Shown here: one piece after another, positions 30,073 to 39,241 of the stretch
How positions within the stretch are numbered: position 1 is the first letter of the stretch
Layout: the number at the start of each line of letters is the position of its first letter
Origin: Caenorhabditis elegans
Lineage: Eukaryota; Nematoda; Chromadorea; Rhabditida; Rhabditidae
Assembly (NCBI RefSeq): GCF_000002985.6
Contig: NC_003282.8
Coordinates: forward strand, 11,160,001 to 11,224,000
DNA length: 64,000 nt
Direction: 5' to 3'
Position numbers and translations under genes: made by a program
The notes under the pieces: model-generated
What the model saw: only the letters and a program-made list of their open reading frames with translations
Told to the model about the DNA's origin: nothing
Database searches by the model: none

Positions 30073-30129
30073 TAAGTTTGGAGCAAAATTGAGCCCAGGA
30101 CGGCTTTCCCCAGTTTGAAAAAATTTTTT
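30073..30129 (+). repeat. 57-bp direct repeat, left copy
   Basis: Begins TAAGTTTGGAGCAAAATTG and ends CCAGTTTGAAAAAATTTTTT. The copy at 37279-37335 differs by about one base and has the same orientation. The two bracket the interrupted pogo-like transposase gene. Confidence 0.85.
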
Positions 30130-31002
30130 ATGGGATTGAACTTTTTTGACGAAGTTTTTCATTGGGCAGAAGAGGTAGATGTCACAAGGTTGAATGAAAG
30201 AAGTCGCTCCAGGTGGAATCGTACGAACGTGGACCGTGTGTCCATATAGCGCAGCGTCTTGTACGTCCCTTTCATTTTTCCATGCTGGCCATGAGTCAAG
30301 GAGAAGAACGGTTTCCTTCGGCATCGCAGGATCGCACACTGCACTTTCAACCCAATCTCTCATTAAATCTTTGGTCATAATGTGACTGGAGTTGGCACGA
30401 ACGATGAGGTTGGACGGAGAACAGTGACCTTTTTTGGGAAACTTGCCTCCTTTTTCCTGTAATATATTACTTTTTGAAAAAGTTAAAGTTGAGAAGACTG
30501 CAATGAATGATACGCATTTTCTACCTGCAAAACGATGTAGAGTTTTGGAGCGAGCTTTCCCGTCACACTCAACATTGGGAGAATGGTATACGAGTGAGAT
30601 AAGGCATCTTTTGATTGGACAAGTCTCTCAACACGTTTCACCCCCCTCGGTGCGAGAGTTCTGAAAAGTTTATTTCATAAAAGTTGCTCTTTTCAAGGCA
30701 AACCTTTTGCAATATTGCTCCTTCGTGAATCCGCTCTGATCACAGTTGAAAGCTGTATTTGGATCGAGCGTTTGCAGTTCTAGTTTCATATCATCAACAT
30801 ACTTCTTTGCCGCTTCTTCTGTCTTTTCTTTATTTGCGAAACTAGCTTTGGTCACAAAAGTAGTGATATGACGAGATACCAAACCATTTGACTTCTTCCA
30901 TTTTGCGAGCCAATCGTCTGAAGCCTTGAAATCGTCGATGTGCACAAACTCTTCATTTAGATCAACTGCCATTCGTCGAAGTGTGAGCTTGTCGGCAATT
31001 AC

Positions 31003-31310
31003 TCCCATGCTTACATTTCCCATGCCTACAATTCCCATGCTTACACATGTTCCCGTACATACAAATGTTCCCATGCTTACACTCAGTAGTAACAGTGTTC
31101 CCATGCGTACAGCTCATTTTTTCTCGTTCCCATGCCTACATTTCCCATGCTTACACGTATTCCCGTACATACAAATTTTCTCATGCGTACACTCGGTAGT
31201 AAAAATGCTCCCATGCGTACAATTCAATTTTTGGTGTTCCCATGCATACATTTCCCATGCTTACAGATGTTCCCATACATACAAAAGTGTATTCCCATGC
31301 TTACACGGAG
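31003..31310 (+). repeat. Subterminal CCCATGCTTACA minisatellite (left arm)
   Basis: About 20 irregularly spaced units of the form TCCCATGC(T/C/A/G)TACA occur here, with variants TCCCGTACATACA. The mirror copy is in the right arm at about 35519-35825. Regular subterminal motifs of this type in other transposons bind their transposase; that role is only inferred. Confidence 0.75.
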
Positions 31311-32017
31311 CACTTTTTGTGCTCCAAAAGAGCACAAAGTCAATTTTTTTGCTCATTTTCGCAGTATCAATCGTATTTGATAGTTTTAAGTCACATTAAT
31401 TACAAATTAGAAAAAAAGAGCTAGTTTTGAACTATTAATCGAGAATCATAGAAAAATGAGAATGATTATCTATAGAGTAAAATTTTTTTAGCTCGAAAAA
31501 AAATTTTTTTTTTTTGAAAATTTTTTTCTCTCTTTTTTGTAGGAAATCATTCATTTGGTGTTTTCCACAATTTTGGATGTTCATATTGCAGTTTCTGTGC
31601 AGTTGTGTGTTTCGCAGTATCTCCGGAACATTCCATTTTTTGTTGCATTTTGTAAGAATTCGGAACTATCTTTTAATTTCTACAAATTTAAAAGTCCATT
31701 TCGCGTTGTTTCATGTATCTTAAGACTATTGCTTCAATCTTTCTTTCATAACATTTTTTTTTGTATTTTTCCAACAGCTACACATTTCGTTCTCTTTTCT
31801 AATTTCGAATGTCTCTTATGTCTGCGTTACTTTCAATGACTGATTTTCACATTTTCATTGGTTTTTTTTTATTTTCAACAATTTCCGGTTTTTTTGTCAT
31901 TTTCAACTGAAATCGTGAAAGTCGACGTTTTATACTATTTTCTCAGTTTTATCTTATTTTCTCATTTTTATCAGCTAAGTAATTATAAAATTGCATTATT
32001 TTAACAGTTATTCTTTA

Positions 32018-32436
32018 GTGGGGTCATCCAGAGGGTAAAAATGAATTTTTTACACTTTATATTATTTCTTTTCCACACAAAAGTCTTATCTGAGACACAA
32101 TTATACGTTTTTAATATGCTCAGATCACTTTTCTATTCTGAGAAGCTGAAAACACAAAAAATTAGAGGGTTCAATTTTTATCGCTTCAGGCCTAAACTTG
32201 CACGTTAATAAATTTGTTTGACAAATGGAAAAATTATATGAATGTTAATCTGTTTTGGAAACGCGAACTATACTGTATCTCGTATAAATAATTTGTGTGG
32301 AAAAGGCAAAATAATGAGTAAAAACGGTAAAAAATGAGGCAAGAAGAGTAAAAAATGAACTTTTTGTCCCAGACGAATAGGGTGAAAAAAGAAATAGGAT
32401 AAAAAATGAATTTTTTACCCAGTTGGATAACCCCAT
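32018..32436. repeat. Small inverted-repeat element nested in the foldback transposon
   Basis: The left end GTGGGGTCATCCAGAGGGTAAA is mirrored on the right by GTTGGATAACCCC preceded by TTTTTTACCC. Both ends carry AATGAATTTTTTAC internally, in opposed orientation. Ends are imperfect, so it is older than its host element or degenerate. No coding sequence. Confidence 0.5.
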
Positions 32437-32690
32437 AATAGAAAAAAAAACTACAAATAGGAAAATGGTCAGAAAATGAAATCCTAAAGCTTTTTTCCCT
32501 AATTTCAGCAGATAAAACGTGCAAAAAATTGTTGCACTTAGAGAAAATAGTATAAAACATGACTTTCAATAACTTTCTCACGATACTTCAAAAGAAAATT
32601 GACTAAAAACAACAAAAAATACCGAAAATTGAAGAAAAAGTCGAAAATAATCGAATTATTCCCTCTGAAATTTAAAGGCGCACTGAATTA

Positions 32691-33931
32691 TCAGGTTGTC
32701 CCATAAGTTTTTGTACTATTTTTTTTTGAAAAAAATTTATTTCTCTCAAGCGACAAGTAGTACTATTCACACAAGTATTCACCATTAGTGTCCACCACTT
32801 GTTGCCATTTACTAGGTAACATCATGATGCCACGGGAGAAGAAATCCGGCGAACGCGATGAGAAGAAAGTGGAGAGTTCAGTTTTGAGATGCTCTTCGTC
32901 GTCGAATTGCTTGTCGCGCATGTAGTCACTGAGAGACAAGAACAAATGGTAGTCGGTTGGTGCAAGATCTGGAGAATATGGTGGATGCGGTAAAACAGTC
33001 CAACCAAGATCTTGCAGCTTTTGGAAAGTCTTCTTGGCGACATGAGGCCTAGCATTATCGTGAAGAAAATATAGTTTTTCATATTTTCCGTTGGTCTTTT
33101 CTGCAACTCGGTCCAATTGGGCACAATAGTAATCAGCAGTGATAGTTTTATTAGTTGGCAACAATTCCCAGTGCACGGGTCCTTGAACACCCCACCAGAC
33201 ACAGATCATAATCTTTTTTGGGTGAAGATCAGGCTTTGGCGTCGGTATTCCTTTCTCACCGATCGGAAGCCATTGACGTTTTCTGGAATGGTTAACATAG
33301 AGCACCCACTTCTCATCTCCAGTAACCAGATTGTTCAGCCAATCGAACTTTCGACGAAAAGTTAGAAGTTGAGTACAAACGTTGACCCGAGTGAGCTTCT
33401 GTGATGCCGAAAGTTCATGAGGCACCCAAGTTCCAAGTTTTGAAGTAAAACCAAGGCGACCCAAGTGACGTGCAATTGTGCTATGACAACACTCAAGCTT
33501 CTCTTCCATTTCACGAAGACTAAGACGAGGCTCTTCCTCCACCAGCTTCACTAGGTCTTCTTCATTTAACTCTACCGGTCGCCCAGAACGTTCTATTTCT
33601 TCGAGACTGAAGTCGCCGTTCTTGAACTTTTGAAACCAACTCTTTGCTGTATTATAAGAGAGTGCTCCCTCACCCATCGCACCGCATATGTTTCGTTCCG
33701 CTTCCATTGCTGAATGACCAAGACGAAATTCATAAAGAAGAAGCAATCTAACGTCTCGACGTTCAAGTTTGATGATTGTCATCGTGGCAAAGTAGAAATG
33801 GATGAAATGAATCTTTTCTGAAAGGGGACGACCCGACCTTGACACGACCTACGATGAAAAAATTTTAAAACTTTCTAGAAGTTTTGGAAAAATATTTGAA
33901 AAAAAGTACAAAAACTTACGGGACAACCTGA
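32691..33931 (-). mobile_element. Complete mariner transposon (1241 bp)
   Basis: The ends are inverted repeats of about 30 bp, TCAGGTTGTCCCATAAG against its near-exact mirror at 33915-33931, with TA on each outer side. That is the mariner target duplication. The element carries one uninterrupted transposase frame on the minus strand and sits within the non-repeated middle of the foldback element. Confidence 0.93.
32763..33782 (-). CDS. mariner transposase, D,D34D, apparently intact
   Basis: A frame of 339 codons without interruption; mariner transposases are usually about 345. The N-terminal helix-turn-helix part is followed by the linker WVPHELSASQK, which mediates dimer contacts. The catalytic acids lie in VTGDEKW, LHDNARPH and SPDLAPTDYHLF. 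There are exactly 34 residues between the second and third acid, the mariner signature. The C-terminus (LPSKWQQVVDTNGEYL) is present. The frame is open upstream to an ATG at 33845, but family length favours the ATG at 33782. All visible catalytic residues are in place, so this copy might be active; that is not shown. Confidence 0.93.
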   Translation of the reverse strand: MTIIKLERRDVRLLLLYEFRLGHSAMEAERNICGAMGEGALSYNTAKSWFQKFKNGDFSLEEIERSGRPVELNEEDLVKLVEEEPRLSLREMEEKLECCHSTIARHLGRLGFTSKLGTWVPHELSASQKLTRVNVCTQLLTFRRKFDWLNNLVTGDEKWVLYVNHSRKRQWLPIGEKGIPTPKPDLHPKKIMICVWWGVQGPVHWELLPTNKTITADYYCAQLDRVAEKTNGKYEKLYFLHDNARPHVAKKTFQKLQDLGWTVLPHPPYSPDLAPTDYHLFLSLSDYMRDKQFDDEEHLKTELSTFFSSRSPDFFSRGIMMLPSKWQQVVDTNGEYLCE

Positions 33932-36900
33932 TATTTGCATGCTCGTGGCGAGACATTTCGCTGCGTATCGACTCACTTCACTCAGTGGATACGCAGATCG
34001 AGCGCAAATTTTGAAAGAAACGAAGGAATTCATGCAATTTTTTTCATTTTTTTACGATTTTTTCCATTTTTCCGGTAAAATGTATTTTTAAAAATGATTA
34101 TTGTAGAAAATTCTGATTTGTATTGCTACTTTCGTGATTTTTTGAGTAGGAGAATCGAAATTAGGGTTGTTTTGACTTAAATTGGCTCCAAATGACCAAA
34201 TTTCGTGTTAAGACGTTTTTAAAATTTCCTAAGAATAAGTTTTGACAGTTTTCTGCTAAAATCTCCAACTTAGCTATGTCGTCAGTATCGCAGCAGTCTA
34301 AAGTGTTTGTATTTTGTCATTTTCTTGTTCGTTATTTTTTATCGCACTGTTTTCGTTTATGCATTTTTGTTGGTGGGTGCACAAAGTATGCCCCCATCTG
34401 CTAAAAATATACTTTAATTGTTCTAAAAGAACGAAAAAATGTGCCCAAAAATTGATAATTGAATAATCTCAAATTTCGATAGCTGCGTCACTGGCAAGTT
34501 GCAACGTTTGATATTTTAGCTTATTTTTGTTCAACCAGGCTTCTCTTTCTCAATTTTAAACCACCTAATTTCAAAAAAAGATTTCGAGACATTGAAATTT
34601 GGTCTTTTGAGGACTATCGTGAAAAGTGAATATAATAAAATGATTTAAATTTCAATTATTTAAACTTATTTTTGTTAACTTTATAGTTTTGTTGTTACAT
34701 AGATTCAAATAAAATGAAACCGGAAAAGTGGAAAAAATGAGTTATTGAAAAAAATTGCAGGAAAAAAGAGAATTTGGAAAGTAGAACTCGACATTGCAAC
34801 AGACTTAAAACTGAAAAAAACAATGAGCAAAATATTTTATATCTCAATTTTGTCAGCATAGAAATACATAAAAGAAGTGCTTGGCATTTGAATTTTATCA
34901 AAATATCTTTTTTTCGAAATTTTTTAAATACCTATATATATTTGATATACTTTTGGAATTCCAGAAACCTTTAAAGCAACCAACAACCTCTATTCAGACG
35001 TTTTCTTATCGAATTCTGATCAAAATAGCGAAAATAATACTTTTTTAATGAAAAAAAGATAATCAACATTTGTTCTGTGCTATTTTTTGAAGCAATAGTC
35101 TTAAGATACATGAAACAATGCGAAATGGACTTTTAAATTTGTAGAAATTAAAAGATAGTTCCGAATTCTTACAAAATGCAACAAAAAATGGAATGTTCCG
35201 GAGATACTGCGAAACACACAACTGCACAGAAACTGCAATATGAACATCCAAAATTGTGGAAAACACCAAATGAATGATTTCCTACAAAATAGAGAGAAAA
35301 AAAATTTTCAAAAAAAAAAAATTTTTTTTTCGAGCTAAAAAAATTTTACTCTATAGATAATCATCCCCATTTTTCTATGATTCTCGATTAATAGTTCAAA
35401 ACTAGCTCTTTTTTTCTAATTTGTAATTAATGTGACTTAAAACTATCAAATACGATTGATACTGCGAAAATGAGCAAAAAAATTGACTTTGTGCTCTTTT
35501 GGAGCACAAAAAGTGCTCCGTGTAAGCATGGGAATACACTTTTGTATGTATGGGAACATCTGTAAGCATGGGAAATGTATGCATGGGAACACCAAAAATT
35601 GAATTGTACGCATGGGAGCATTTTTACTACTGAGTGTACGCATGGGAAAATTTGTATGTACGGGAATACGTGTAAGCATGGGAAATGTAGGCATGGGAAC
35701 GAGAAAAAATGAGCTGTACGCATGGGAACACTGTTACTACTGAGTGTAAGCATGGGAACATTTGTATGTACGGGAACATGTGTAAGCATGGGAATTGTAG
35801 GCATGGGAAATGTAAGCATGGGAGTAATTGCCGAGCTTGTCGATTTGAACTTCTAAAAAATAAAGCATGCAAATTTAATTTGCAATCAAACACTCACTTG
35901 CTTCCATTGTCTCAAAAACTTTTGCTCTCAAAAGTTCTGACAGTTTTGCGAAGCTGGAAGCTCGAGAACAATTGACTTTTTCTAAAACAAATAAATAGTT
36001 GTGCACCGAGAATATGGAAAAAGAAAACTGACGATTTCTAGCGAACTTTCGGAGCTTCTTCATATCCTGTTCTGACTTGATAAAACGGTAACGATGCTGT
36101 ACACTGGACATTGGGCGGAACTTGTTATGTTTTGTATCCATCATAAATTCAATAGCCTTTTCAACCTGTATTGATAACAGTATTACAATTCAAAACATAC
36201 ACATAAGTTGGTAGCATTTATAAAAATACGGTGGCTTTCGAAAACCGTAAAAACGTCTTTCTTTTACAAATTTTTTAGACATAGTTGAAAACTCACAGTC
36301 TCCACATCTACTAGATTTCCCGAAAAATTTACTTTGTCCGGAAGAGCATAAGTAGTGGGACCATCATCGTCTGCTGTCCAATTTTCATCCTCTACTATTC
36401 CACCGACAATTTCCTCTTCATCCTCACTATACACGATCAGCTCATGAGTTTTTCCATCACGCAATATTCTTCGAACACGTTCGAGAATTTTTTGTTCCTC
36501 GCGGCTCATGAAACTTGGATTATATTCATGTCCAAACTCTTCCACCAGTCCTCCAACAATAAGATCAGCACGGAACGGCATTTACCTTTAATTCAATAAG
36601 TAAAAACAACAAAAAAACGGTGAAATTACTAAAAAAAAATTCGAACAAAAACGGCGGTTTACACCAATGGCCCTTTCCGTCGGTCACGACCCAGTTTATC
36701 GCGAAATACGTTTTAACCATGAGTTTAATAATGAAAATAATCTTTCGGTGGATTTTTTATAGTTATCTGAAAATCTGAAAATTCTATTTTTTTTCATGAC
36801 TTTGATGATGAAAATTTTAATTTTTTTTGAAATTTTTTTAATTCAAAAAATGTGAGAAAATGTGATGCAAACGTTTATAAGAAACTCAAAAAGGTGGAGA

Positions 36901-36974
36901 AAGTCAGTAAAAGTAATTTCAATCACACTTTTTACTGTTTTTAAAATACAGTAAAAACTTTTAAAAAAAGCTTT

Positions 36975-37045
36975 ATAACGCAAGGGATCGAACCCACAAC
37001 CTTCACCACCAGAACCCATCTCGTTACCACTTAACCAACCAACCG
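36975..37045 (-). pseudogene. tRNA-like sequence with A and B boxes
   Basis: On the minus strand, TGGTTAAGTGGTAACGAG resembles a polymerase III A box and D arm. About 35 bases later GGGTTCGATCCC matches the B box exactly. The T stem pairs only partly (GG with CC), and no good anticodon stem or acceptor stem can be drawn. It is more likely a tRNA pseudogene or SINE head than a working tRNA. Confidence 0.4.
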
Positions 37046-37278
37046 ATGATTTGCTTACACCACGCGCCTGGTGACAACTATGGTGTCCCGGGCTGATGCC
37101 GACCGTTGATTTAGTATACAAATCAACCGATTTTAGACCGAATTTTCAAAACGTCATAACTTTGCTGAAACCCAACCGGGGCAGCTAAATTTTTTGGAGG
37201 GATCATCTGGAATACTCTTCTATTGGAATTTCAACATGAGAATCCCAAATCTACGGATCACCTGAAAGACTTCCCTTG

Positions 37279-37335
37279 TAAGTTCGGAGCAAAATTGAGC
37301 CCAGGACGGCTTTCCCCAGTTTGAAAAAATTTTTT
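37279..37335 (+). repeat. 57-bp direct repeat, right copy
   Basis: Partner of 30073-30129 in the same orientation, with about one mismatch. Confidence 0.85.
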
Positions 37336-37583: not shown

Positions 37584-39241
37584 CACAGCGCCTCAAATCG
37601 GGAGAGTTGTGAAAATCGAGAATTGAAAAGTCCAACGGAGCGCGCTTGCACACTTTTACGGTATTAAATGAATTTCAGACGAAATTTCGCGATTATTCGA
37701 GTTTTCAAGATGAAATTTGGAAAAAATAATTGAATATTGGGATTATTATTGCTTTAAAAAAGTTTTAAAAAACATTTTATTGAACAAATTCAAGATTTGG
37801 TTGATTTATCATTGATTTTCGAACCGATTAGAACAAGTTAACTCTATGACAAAATTTCTACGCGAAACAAATTTTTTCAAGCCTCAATATGTTTGATTCC
37901 AATTTTTAAACTTCAGCTTAATAGAAATAACATGGTTTCAAGTCTTGAAATTGCTCAAAAATGCCCAAATCAACGGAAACTGTTTAGTTGGCAGTTGATC
38001 TTCACTAAACCAACACTAAATGTTCAGATCAAATCAAAACTTGTTTTATCATTTGAAAAAACATTTTTGAATCATTGTTTCCCACAAAAAGCAGATGATA
38101 AGTAGTATAGCATGATGAGAATCCATATGATTCTTCAAATGCGCATAGCTATAGATACTGTAACTTCAACAACTCCTATCTCCTCAGAGAGGCAAGATAT
38201 CGAAAAGTGATTAACTAACAAATTGTAGAACATATCAAAAACTATAATAATTAATTAAAATCATGTATTTATCTCTTAAGATGAGGGAGTTAGAGCAGCC
38301 AGTAGAATAACAAAAAGTATGCAATACAAATGTAAGTCTAACTCCCCCATCTTGAAAGATAAAAACGTAGGTTAAATTGAATATCATAGTTTTTGATGTG
38401 CTCTACATGTTTTTAGTTGATCACTTTTTGATATCTCGCCTCTGCGAGTAGATAGGAGTTGTCGAAGTTGAGGTATCTAGAGCGGTAGAGGGTAGGAAGA
38501 ACCTGATGGTTCCTTATTAAGGAAAAGAAAGAATAACACGAAACTTGTGAAAAATGTTAATTTGATCATTTATGTGAGTATTTGAGCCATTTTTTAAGGA
38601 AAATTGGAGAGCAACACTTACATAAGAAATTTGGCGTGGCATAGATCACTTGGTAGATTGGAACATTGAAATTTGATCAGAACTATTTGTATTTTCAGTG
38701 ATTTTGATTGATTTGTAGCTCTATTTTAGTGAAATCTTTGATTTCATAAAAGTTTTTTAACTAATTTTGCAAGATTTCCCTTGATAAATGTTGCTTTACT
38801 TTTTTATCGATTTCGTTGTAAAGAAAAATCATTTTTCTGTGTTATCAGTCAAATTAATGACTAAAAATCTTTAAAAAGATTCAAACTATTAATAAAAATT
38901 CTAAAATTAAACATTTATGCAATAAATTGTTCTAAAATCTATTTTCATTTGCAAAATTCTGTTTTTATTGAAAAAAAATTTCAGATTCGCCGAAATTCAG
39001 AGCTCATTTCGAGCTTATTTGAGGAAAAATTTATGTTAAAATGAAGTAAATCGCATCGCGAACAGTCTCTGGGCGGTCCCGGTTGTTGAAAATTGCTTTA
39101 AAATCCCTAAAATCCAGCAAAAACGCGATATTTTACTGTTTTGCTATACATTAATTCCAATTCGTGCGACGTCTGCAGCAAATGCGCTCCCGCGCCAAAA
39201 CCACTTTTTTTAGCTCTTCTCTCCCGATCTGAGGCGCTGTG
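37584..39241. repeat. 1.66 kb element, left half of a 5 kb inverted repeat
   Basis: Its own ends are short inverted repeats, CACAGCGCCTCAAATCGGGA at the left and CCCGATCTGAGGCGCTGTG at the right. The whole unit recurs in reverse at 40857-42607 with high similarity, including internal CAGTAGAATAACAAAAAGT blocks. No long open frame. It behaves like a non-autonomous DNA transposon. Confidence 0.85.

Follow-up and report, generated by a model that had tools for sequence, protein, structure and literature searches.

What is the pair of long inverted arms that lies within a 64,000-nucleotide stretch of Caenorhabditis elegans DNA (NC_003282.8, positions 11,160,001 to 11,224,000; hereafter the window), what did it insert into, and what moved it? 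The original prediction saw a foldback transposon with a perfect 9-bp target duplication at 30985..35841, and this is borne out by the ends, by the arms and by the presence of GAGCTTGTC on both flanks. The element itself spans 4,839 bp (30994-35832) and has GGCAATTACTCCCATGC as the terminal sequence at both ends. It is enclosed by two unstranded copies of GAGCTTGTC, at 30985..30993 on the left and 35833..35841 on the right, which form a perfect 9-bp duplication that does not extend to 10 bp. The left arm (30994..31737, plus strand, 744 bp) starts with GGCAATTAC, and the right arm (35087..35832, minus strand) is its inverted copy. That the arms are near-identical was rightly predicted, and the length given for them, 744-745 bp, is off by a trivial amount, the right arm measuring 746 bp. 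Gapless inverted matches between the arms are 98% identical; arm against arm, identity is 98.93% when gaps are counted (748 columns) and 99.19% when they are not (744 aligned bases).

The arms are composite. Over approximately its first 312 bp, the arm is mostly made up of TCCCATGCNTACA subrepeats set within a 110-bp higher-order repeat. On the plus strand of the left arm, 15 such units, allowing up to three substitutions and spaced 15-30 bp apart, occupy 31003..31305, compared with an average of 0.4 units, and never more than three, when the arm was put through 200 single-base shuffles. The element therefore has the long arms of tandem subrepeats by which foldback elements are recognised, and it has in common with Mutator-like elements a duplication of about 9 bp and long terminal inverted repeats.

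The interrupted sequence had been taken for an exon of a host gene. In fact, the host is a truncated copy of a Tc5-like DNA transposon, as judged from a DDE_1 match and from a relative elsewhere in the genome that retains its end repeats. The downstream part of this target lies at 30130..30984 on the minus strand; in Pfam searches of the target exon frames, one matched DDE_1 at E 4e-8, above the cut-off, another matched the Tc5 HTH at E 0.0012, below the cut-off, and two others gave no family over the cut-off. The upstream part (35842..37278, minus strand) includes the sole remaining long end repeat, the terminus of which, ..GACTTCCCTTG, adjoins TAA. When an 85-aa target exon was searched against the genome, seven places were found: the window itself, one identical place and five at 66%. 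The identical place lies inside a transposon at C4:10548519-10554397 (L064:3020-8898), which has long inverted end repeats starting with CAAGGGAAGTC and TGA on either side. It matches the window at 99.4% over 30129-30994 and at 98.5% over 35833-37284, and it runs uninterrupted across the target, with GACAAGCTC present once, at the position that matches the window's duplication. This transposon is the empty target site of the foldback element. The exact joined reading, ..VQIDKLTLRRMAV.., is found in the element-free copy around C4:10549955, 0.64 Mb from the element in the window, so the in-frame rejoining that had been predicted holds as a join, while its significance for a host gene does not. 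Given that the host is a Tc5-like transposon, the join restores only another transposon's frame and, as in-frame rejoining is the outcome of every insertion that duplicates its target, it adds no evidence.

The window's Tc5-like copy has its proper end at 37278, beside TAA, and is broken off at 30130. Exactly at these two boundaries stands a 57-bp direct repeat (30073-30129 and 37279-37335, 56/57 identical), such that the sequence beyond the intact end recurs at the broken end; this looks like the trace of aborted gap repair or of template switching. In the element-free copy, the right end repeat is split by a 2.7-kb insertion (L064:5972-8647), both ends of which are ACAGGTAAACCGCGTCATGCGA. 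Elsewhere in the window, 38148-38483 form a distinct, imperfect 336-bp palindrome (77%).

The foldback element has in turn received an insertion. The statement that no transposase lies inside it is literally wrong, since a complete mariner with an open frame is nested there, though as a later and unrelated passenger. The mariner (32691..33931, minus strand) has its own terminal inverted repeat, TCAGGTTGTCCC, and a TA duplication, both foreign to the foldback element, and it divides the inner region into a first part at 31738..32690 and a second at 33932..35086 (neither with an assigned strand). Its 361-aa frame, open from stop to stop (32763..33848, minus strand), matches the mariner transposase families Transposase_1 and the Mos1 HTH (HTH_48). 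The sister copy L009 (C4:13223540-13228213) agrees with the window element at 97.9-99.5% in matching pieces of the arms and inner region; of its right arm, only some 228 bp remain. It lacks the mariner and carries instead another element, which from its frames and ends we take to be Tc1-like. At the place of the mariner, L009 reads as a single uninterrupted GAATTATTTGC, that is, an empty TA site. Since L009 lacks the mariner and has this uninterrupted sequence, the order of insertions is Tc5-like copy, then foldback element, then mariner. The locus is an ordered three-layer nest in which both inner insertions have a natural empty site.

The foldback element belongs to a family. Its first 101 bases, taken together with the flank as the finding was delimited, gave 50 matches as a query (40 of 46 candidates scored). 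The end pattern GGCAATNNNTCCCATGC had 46 matches in the genome, of which 35 were exact and 11 had a single mismatch, against six for the backwards control; 39 of the 46 are the ends of 19 two-ended copies, which span 360-5,935 bp, and of one one-ended copy, and the remaining seven are one-mismatch places elsewhere. An exact 9-bp duplication flanks 18 of the 22 two-ended copies, and all 18 duplications differ in sequence. L009 agrees at 8 of 9 positions and L073 at 6 of 9, the latter being a decayed GGCCC copy, 339 bp long and with two ends, that is included in the 22; none was found in L014 or in L069, the flanks of the latter forming an inverted repeat with no direct duplication. By end type, the exact duplication is present in 1/2 copies with GGCAATTAC, 16/17 with GGCAATCTA and 1/3 with GGCCCATGA. 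Outside this count are L010, L051, L052, L053 and L074, each with one recognised end, and L066, L068, L070, L071 and L072, which are places already counted or left out. Nine base pairs is therefore a family trait, as the original prediction had expected of other copies, and the TA or 3-bp duplications that it had named as pointing elsewhere did not occur among the 22 two-ended copies. Membership of the Tc4/Tc5 group was considered and rejected, as the duplications are of 9 bp and not TNA. One member, at L021:1001-6935, is 5.9 kb long, has a perfect 9-bp duplication and has enlarged inverted arms of 1.4 kb that are 99.5% identical. A clear 9-bp family is present in the best-known nematode genome.

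We believe that the element is probably a foldback DNA transposon that is non-autonomous, belongs to a small C. elegans family, was inserted in trans, most likely by a MULE enzyme, into a Tc5-like target and was later entered by a mariner. The duplications and the empty site are most directly read as a staggered 9-base cut and insertion in trans. We propose that a transposase supplied in trans would cut the target, here the Tc5-like copy, with a 9-base stagger and insert the foldback element, presumably by cut-and-paste. The enzyme would most likely recognise the motifs that recur along the composite arms, which are putative binding sites, and would most likely be of the Mutator (MULE) kind; the mariner would then have jumped into the resident element. 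The MULE identity is suggested by the length of the duplication, by the long composite arms and by the nematode precedent Tm1. Of the Mutator-like reading originally put forward, the transposed foldback and the family-wide 9-bp duplication stand, whereas the MULE enzyme is unproven, none having been seen in the 20 frames scanned.

These frames were drawn from 54 stop-free inner frames of at least 50 aa in four copies (L009, L051, L021 and L014); none of the 20 scanned with Pfam exceeded the cut-off. They include frames from both parts of the inner region, scanned in the sister copy L009 with no Pfam domain over the cut-off, and 7 of the 22 inner frames of at least 50 aa in L021, likewise with no match over the cut-off. 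Matches to PUB, Retrotrans_gag, HCMV_UL139, RAI16-like and DUF7863 in the inner frames were all below the cut-off and were taken as chance. At the level of the genome, the MULE profile PF10551 had no match at E 0.001 (control genomes positive, 3/14), nor did the MULE profile PF20700, for which no control genome was positive. The FLYWCH profile PF04500 found three places in the genome, showing that the profile search works there; by coordinates, none of these is within 100 kb of a listed family copy. The absence of a MULE profile match in the genome is weak counter-evidence: as the literature cites autonomous CEMUDR1 and CEMUDR2 families for C. elegans, either they were missed by the profiles in the six-frame search or their transposase has decayed.

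The alternative that survives best keeps the same trans-mobilised foldback and has it moved by a non-MULE transposase that makes duplications of about 9 bp, such as Merlin, whose duplications are of 8-9 bp. A 9-bp duplication does not by itself prove the superfamily, and neither PF10551 nor PF20700 found a MULE domain in the genome. Against this, PF12762, presumably the Merlin-type (IS1595-type) DDE domain, also had no genome match at E 0.001 (1/14 control genomes positive), and the precedent in nematodes that encodes a MULE protein has both long composite arms and 9-bp duplications (PMC3169594). We consider a non-MULE enzyme improbable. Far less plausible is mobilisation of the foldback by the transposase of the mariner that it contains, as the open mariner frame might suggest. 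Given that the nested mariner has its own terminal repeats and TA duplication, that all 40 scored of 83 candidate mariner places in the genome, the window's own included, are full length and near-identical, and that the sister copy L009 has the same ends at a different place without the mariner, this origin is practically refuted. The target duplication made by mariner enzymes is TA rather than 9 bp. Although further long inverted repeats occur in the loci examined, the idea that a local inverted duplication produced a long palindrome beside which the 9-bp repeat stands by chance is refuted by the precise empty site in L064 and by a family in which 18/22 copies have exact 9-bp duplications beside shared end types.

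The preferred reading, a foldback mobilised in trans by a MULE-like enzyme, can be extended to the history of the arms. Three end types, GGCAATTAC, GGCAATCTA and GGCCCATGA, adjoin a common inner arm (75-88% by stretch), and each is represented by at least one copy with an exact 9-bp duplication. The link from GGCCCATGA to the inner arm is visible in three one-ended copies, L051, L052 and L053. Ends of a second kind, GGCCCATGATCC accompanied by GGGTACATC subrepeats, were recognised via L051 (about C5:18306457-18309387), which agrees with the foldback family in its inner arm and in part of its inner region. It is conceivable, though we hold it rather doubtful, that this is an orphan lineage, the transposase of which was lost from the reference strain but is retained by wild isolates or by sister species, and that the outer, enzyme-facing module of the arm has been swapped while the inner arm was kept. 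Homogenisation of the arms within copies was also considered. Identity of arm to arm within a copy is 0.929-0.996 in 15/17 two-ended GGCAATCTA copies, in several over part of the arm (L012 and L027 were left out as short), and between copies the median is 0.988 over 105 pairs, each taken as the best of four comparisons; because this choice is biased upwards, the comparison shows no excess of within-copy likeness and proves nothing further. If transcription ran through both arms, these near-perfect repeats of about 745 bp would yield long double-stranded RNA, which may bear on small-RNA silencing.

Foldback elements with 9-bp duplications are already known, from flies and, with Tm1, from nematodes. 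In Drosophila Foldback (FB/NOF), the arms are long and built of tandem subrepeats, and the duplications are of 9 bp; compared by description only, the worm element is alike in both respects, in another host. Tc4 of C. elegans likewise has foldback architecture, but it makes TNA duplications, as does the Tc4/Tc5 group, whereas the worm family described here makes 9-bp duplications, and a Tc5-like element is here the target. That the class has few described members in nematodes, as had been supposed, is overstated: published sources describe Tm1 (PMC3169594), name CEMUDR1/2 (PMC2725143) and place MULE-MuDR among the widespread and predominant nematode superfamilies (PMC11118728). A further source (PMC6446971) tabulates several MULE groups that make 9-bp duplications, and in some of them the inverted repeats run to hundreds of bp. 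In the open-licence PMC literature, as far as its text was accessible, there was no description of the foldback family under a name that could be matched. LONGPAL1 and LONGPAL3 are named for C. elegans in PMC9683057; likened by name only, which suggests long palindromic elements, they raise the guess that the family may already bear a Repbase name such as LONGPAL.

A close structural parallel is Tm1, a Mutator/foldback family of Meloidogyne. According to its description (PMC3169594), its inverted repeats are composite and contain 13-15 bp units in tandem, and 45/53 complete elements have duplications of 8-10 bp, mostly 9, without consensus; Tm1-A codes for a FLYWCH and MULE protein, and the family includes non-coding members. 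The worm family resembles it in its composite arms, duplications of about 9 bp and non-coding members. It differs in the unit, which is CGATTCAGTATCCGC in Tm1 against TCCCATGCNTACA here, the quoted Tm1 motifs looking unlike the arm motifs in a comparison by eye only, and, unlike the MULE protein of Tm1-A, none was seen in the worm frames scanned. Within the species, CEMUDR1 and CEMUDR2, so named in Repbase, are C. elegans MuDR transposons cited as autonomous (PMC2725143), and another report describes CEMUDR1 as autonomous and as de-repressed in rpb-9 mutants (PMC7917558). Compared by description only, they share the species and probably the Mutator superfamily with the foldback family, and they are described as autonomous whereas it is most likely non-autonomous. 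CEMUDR1/2 are the obvious candidate drivers of the foldback family.
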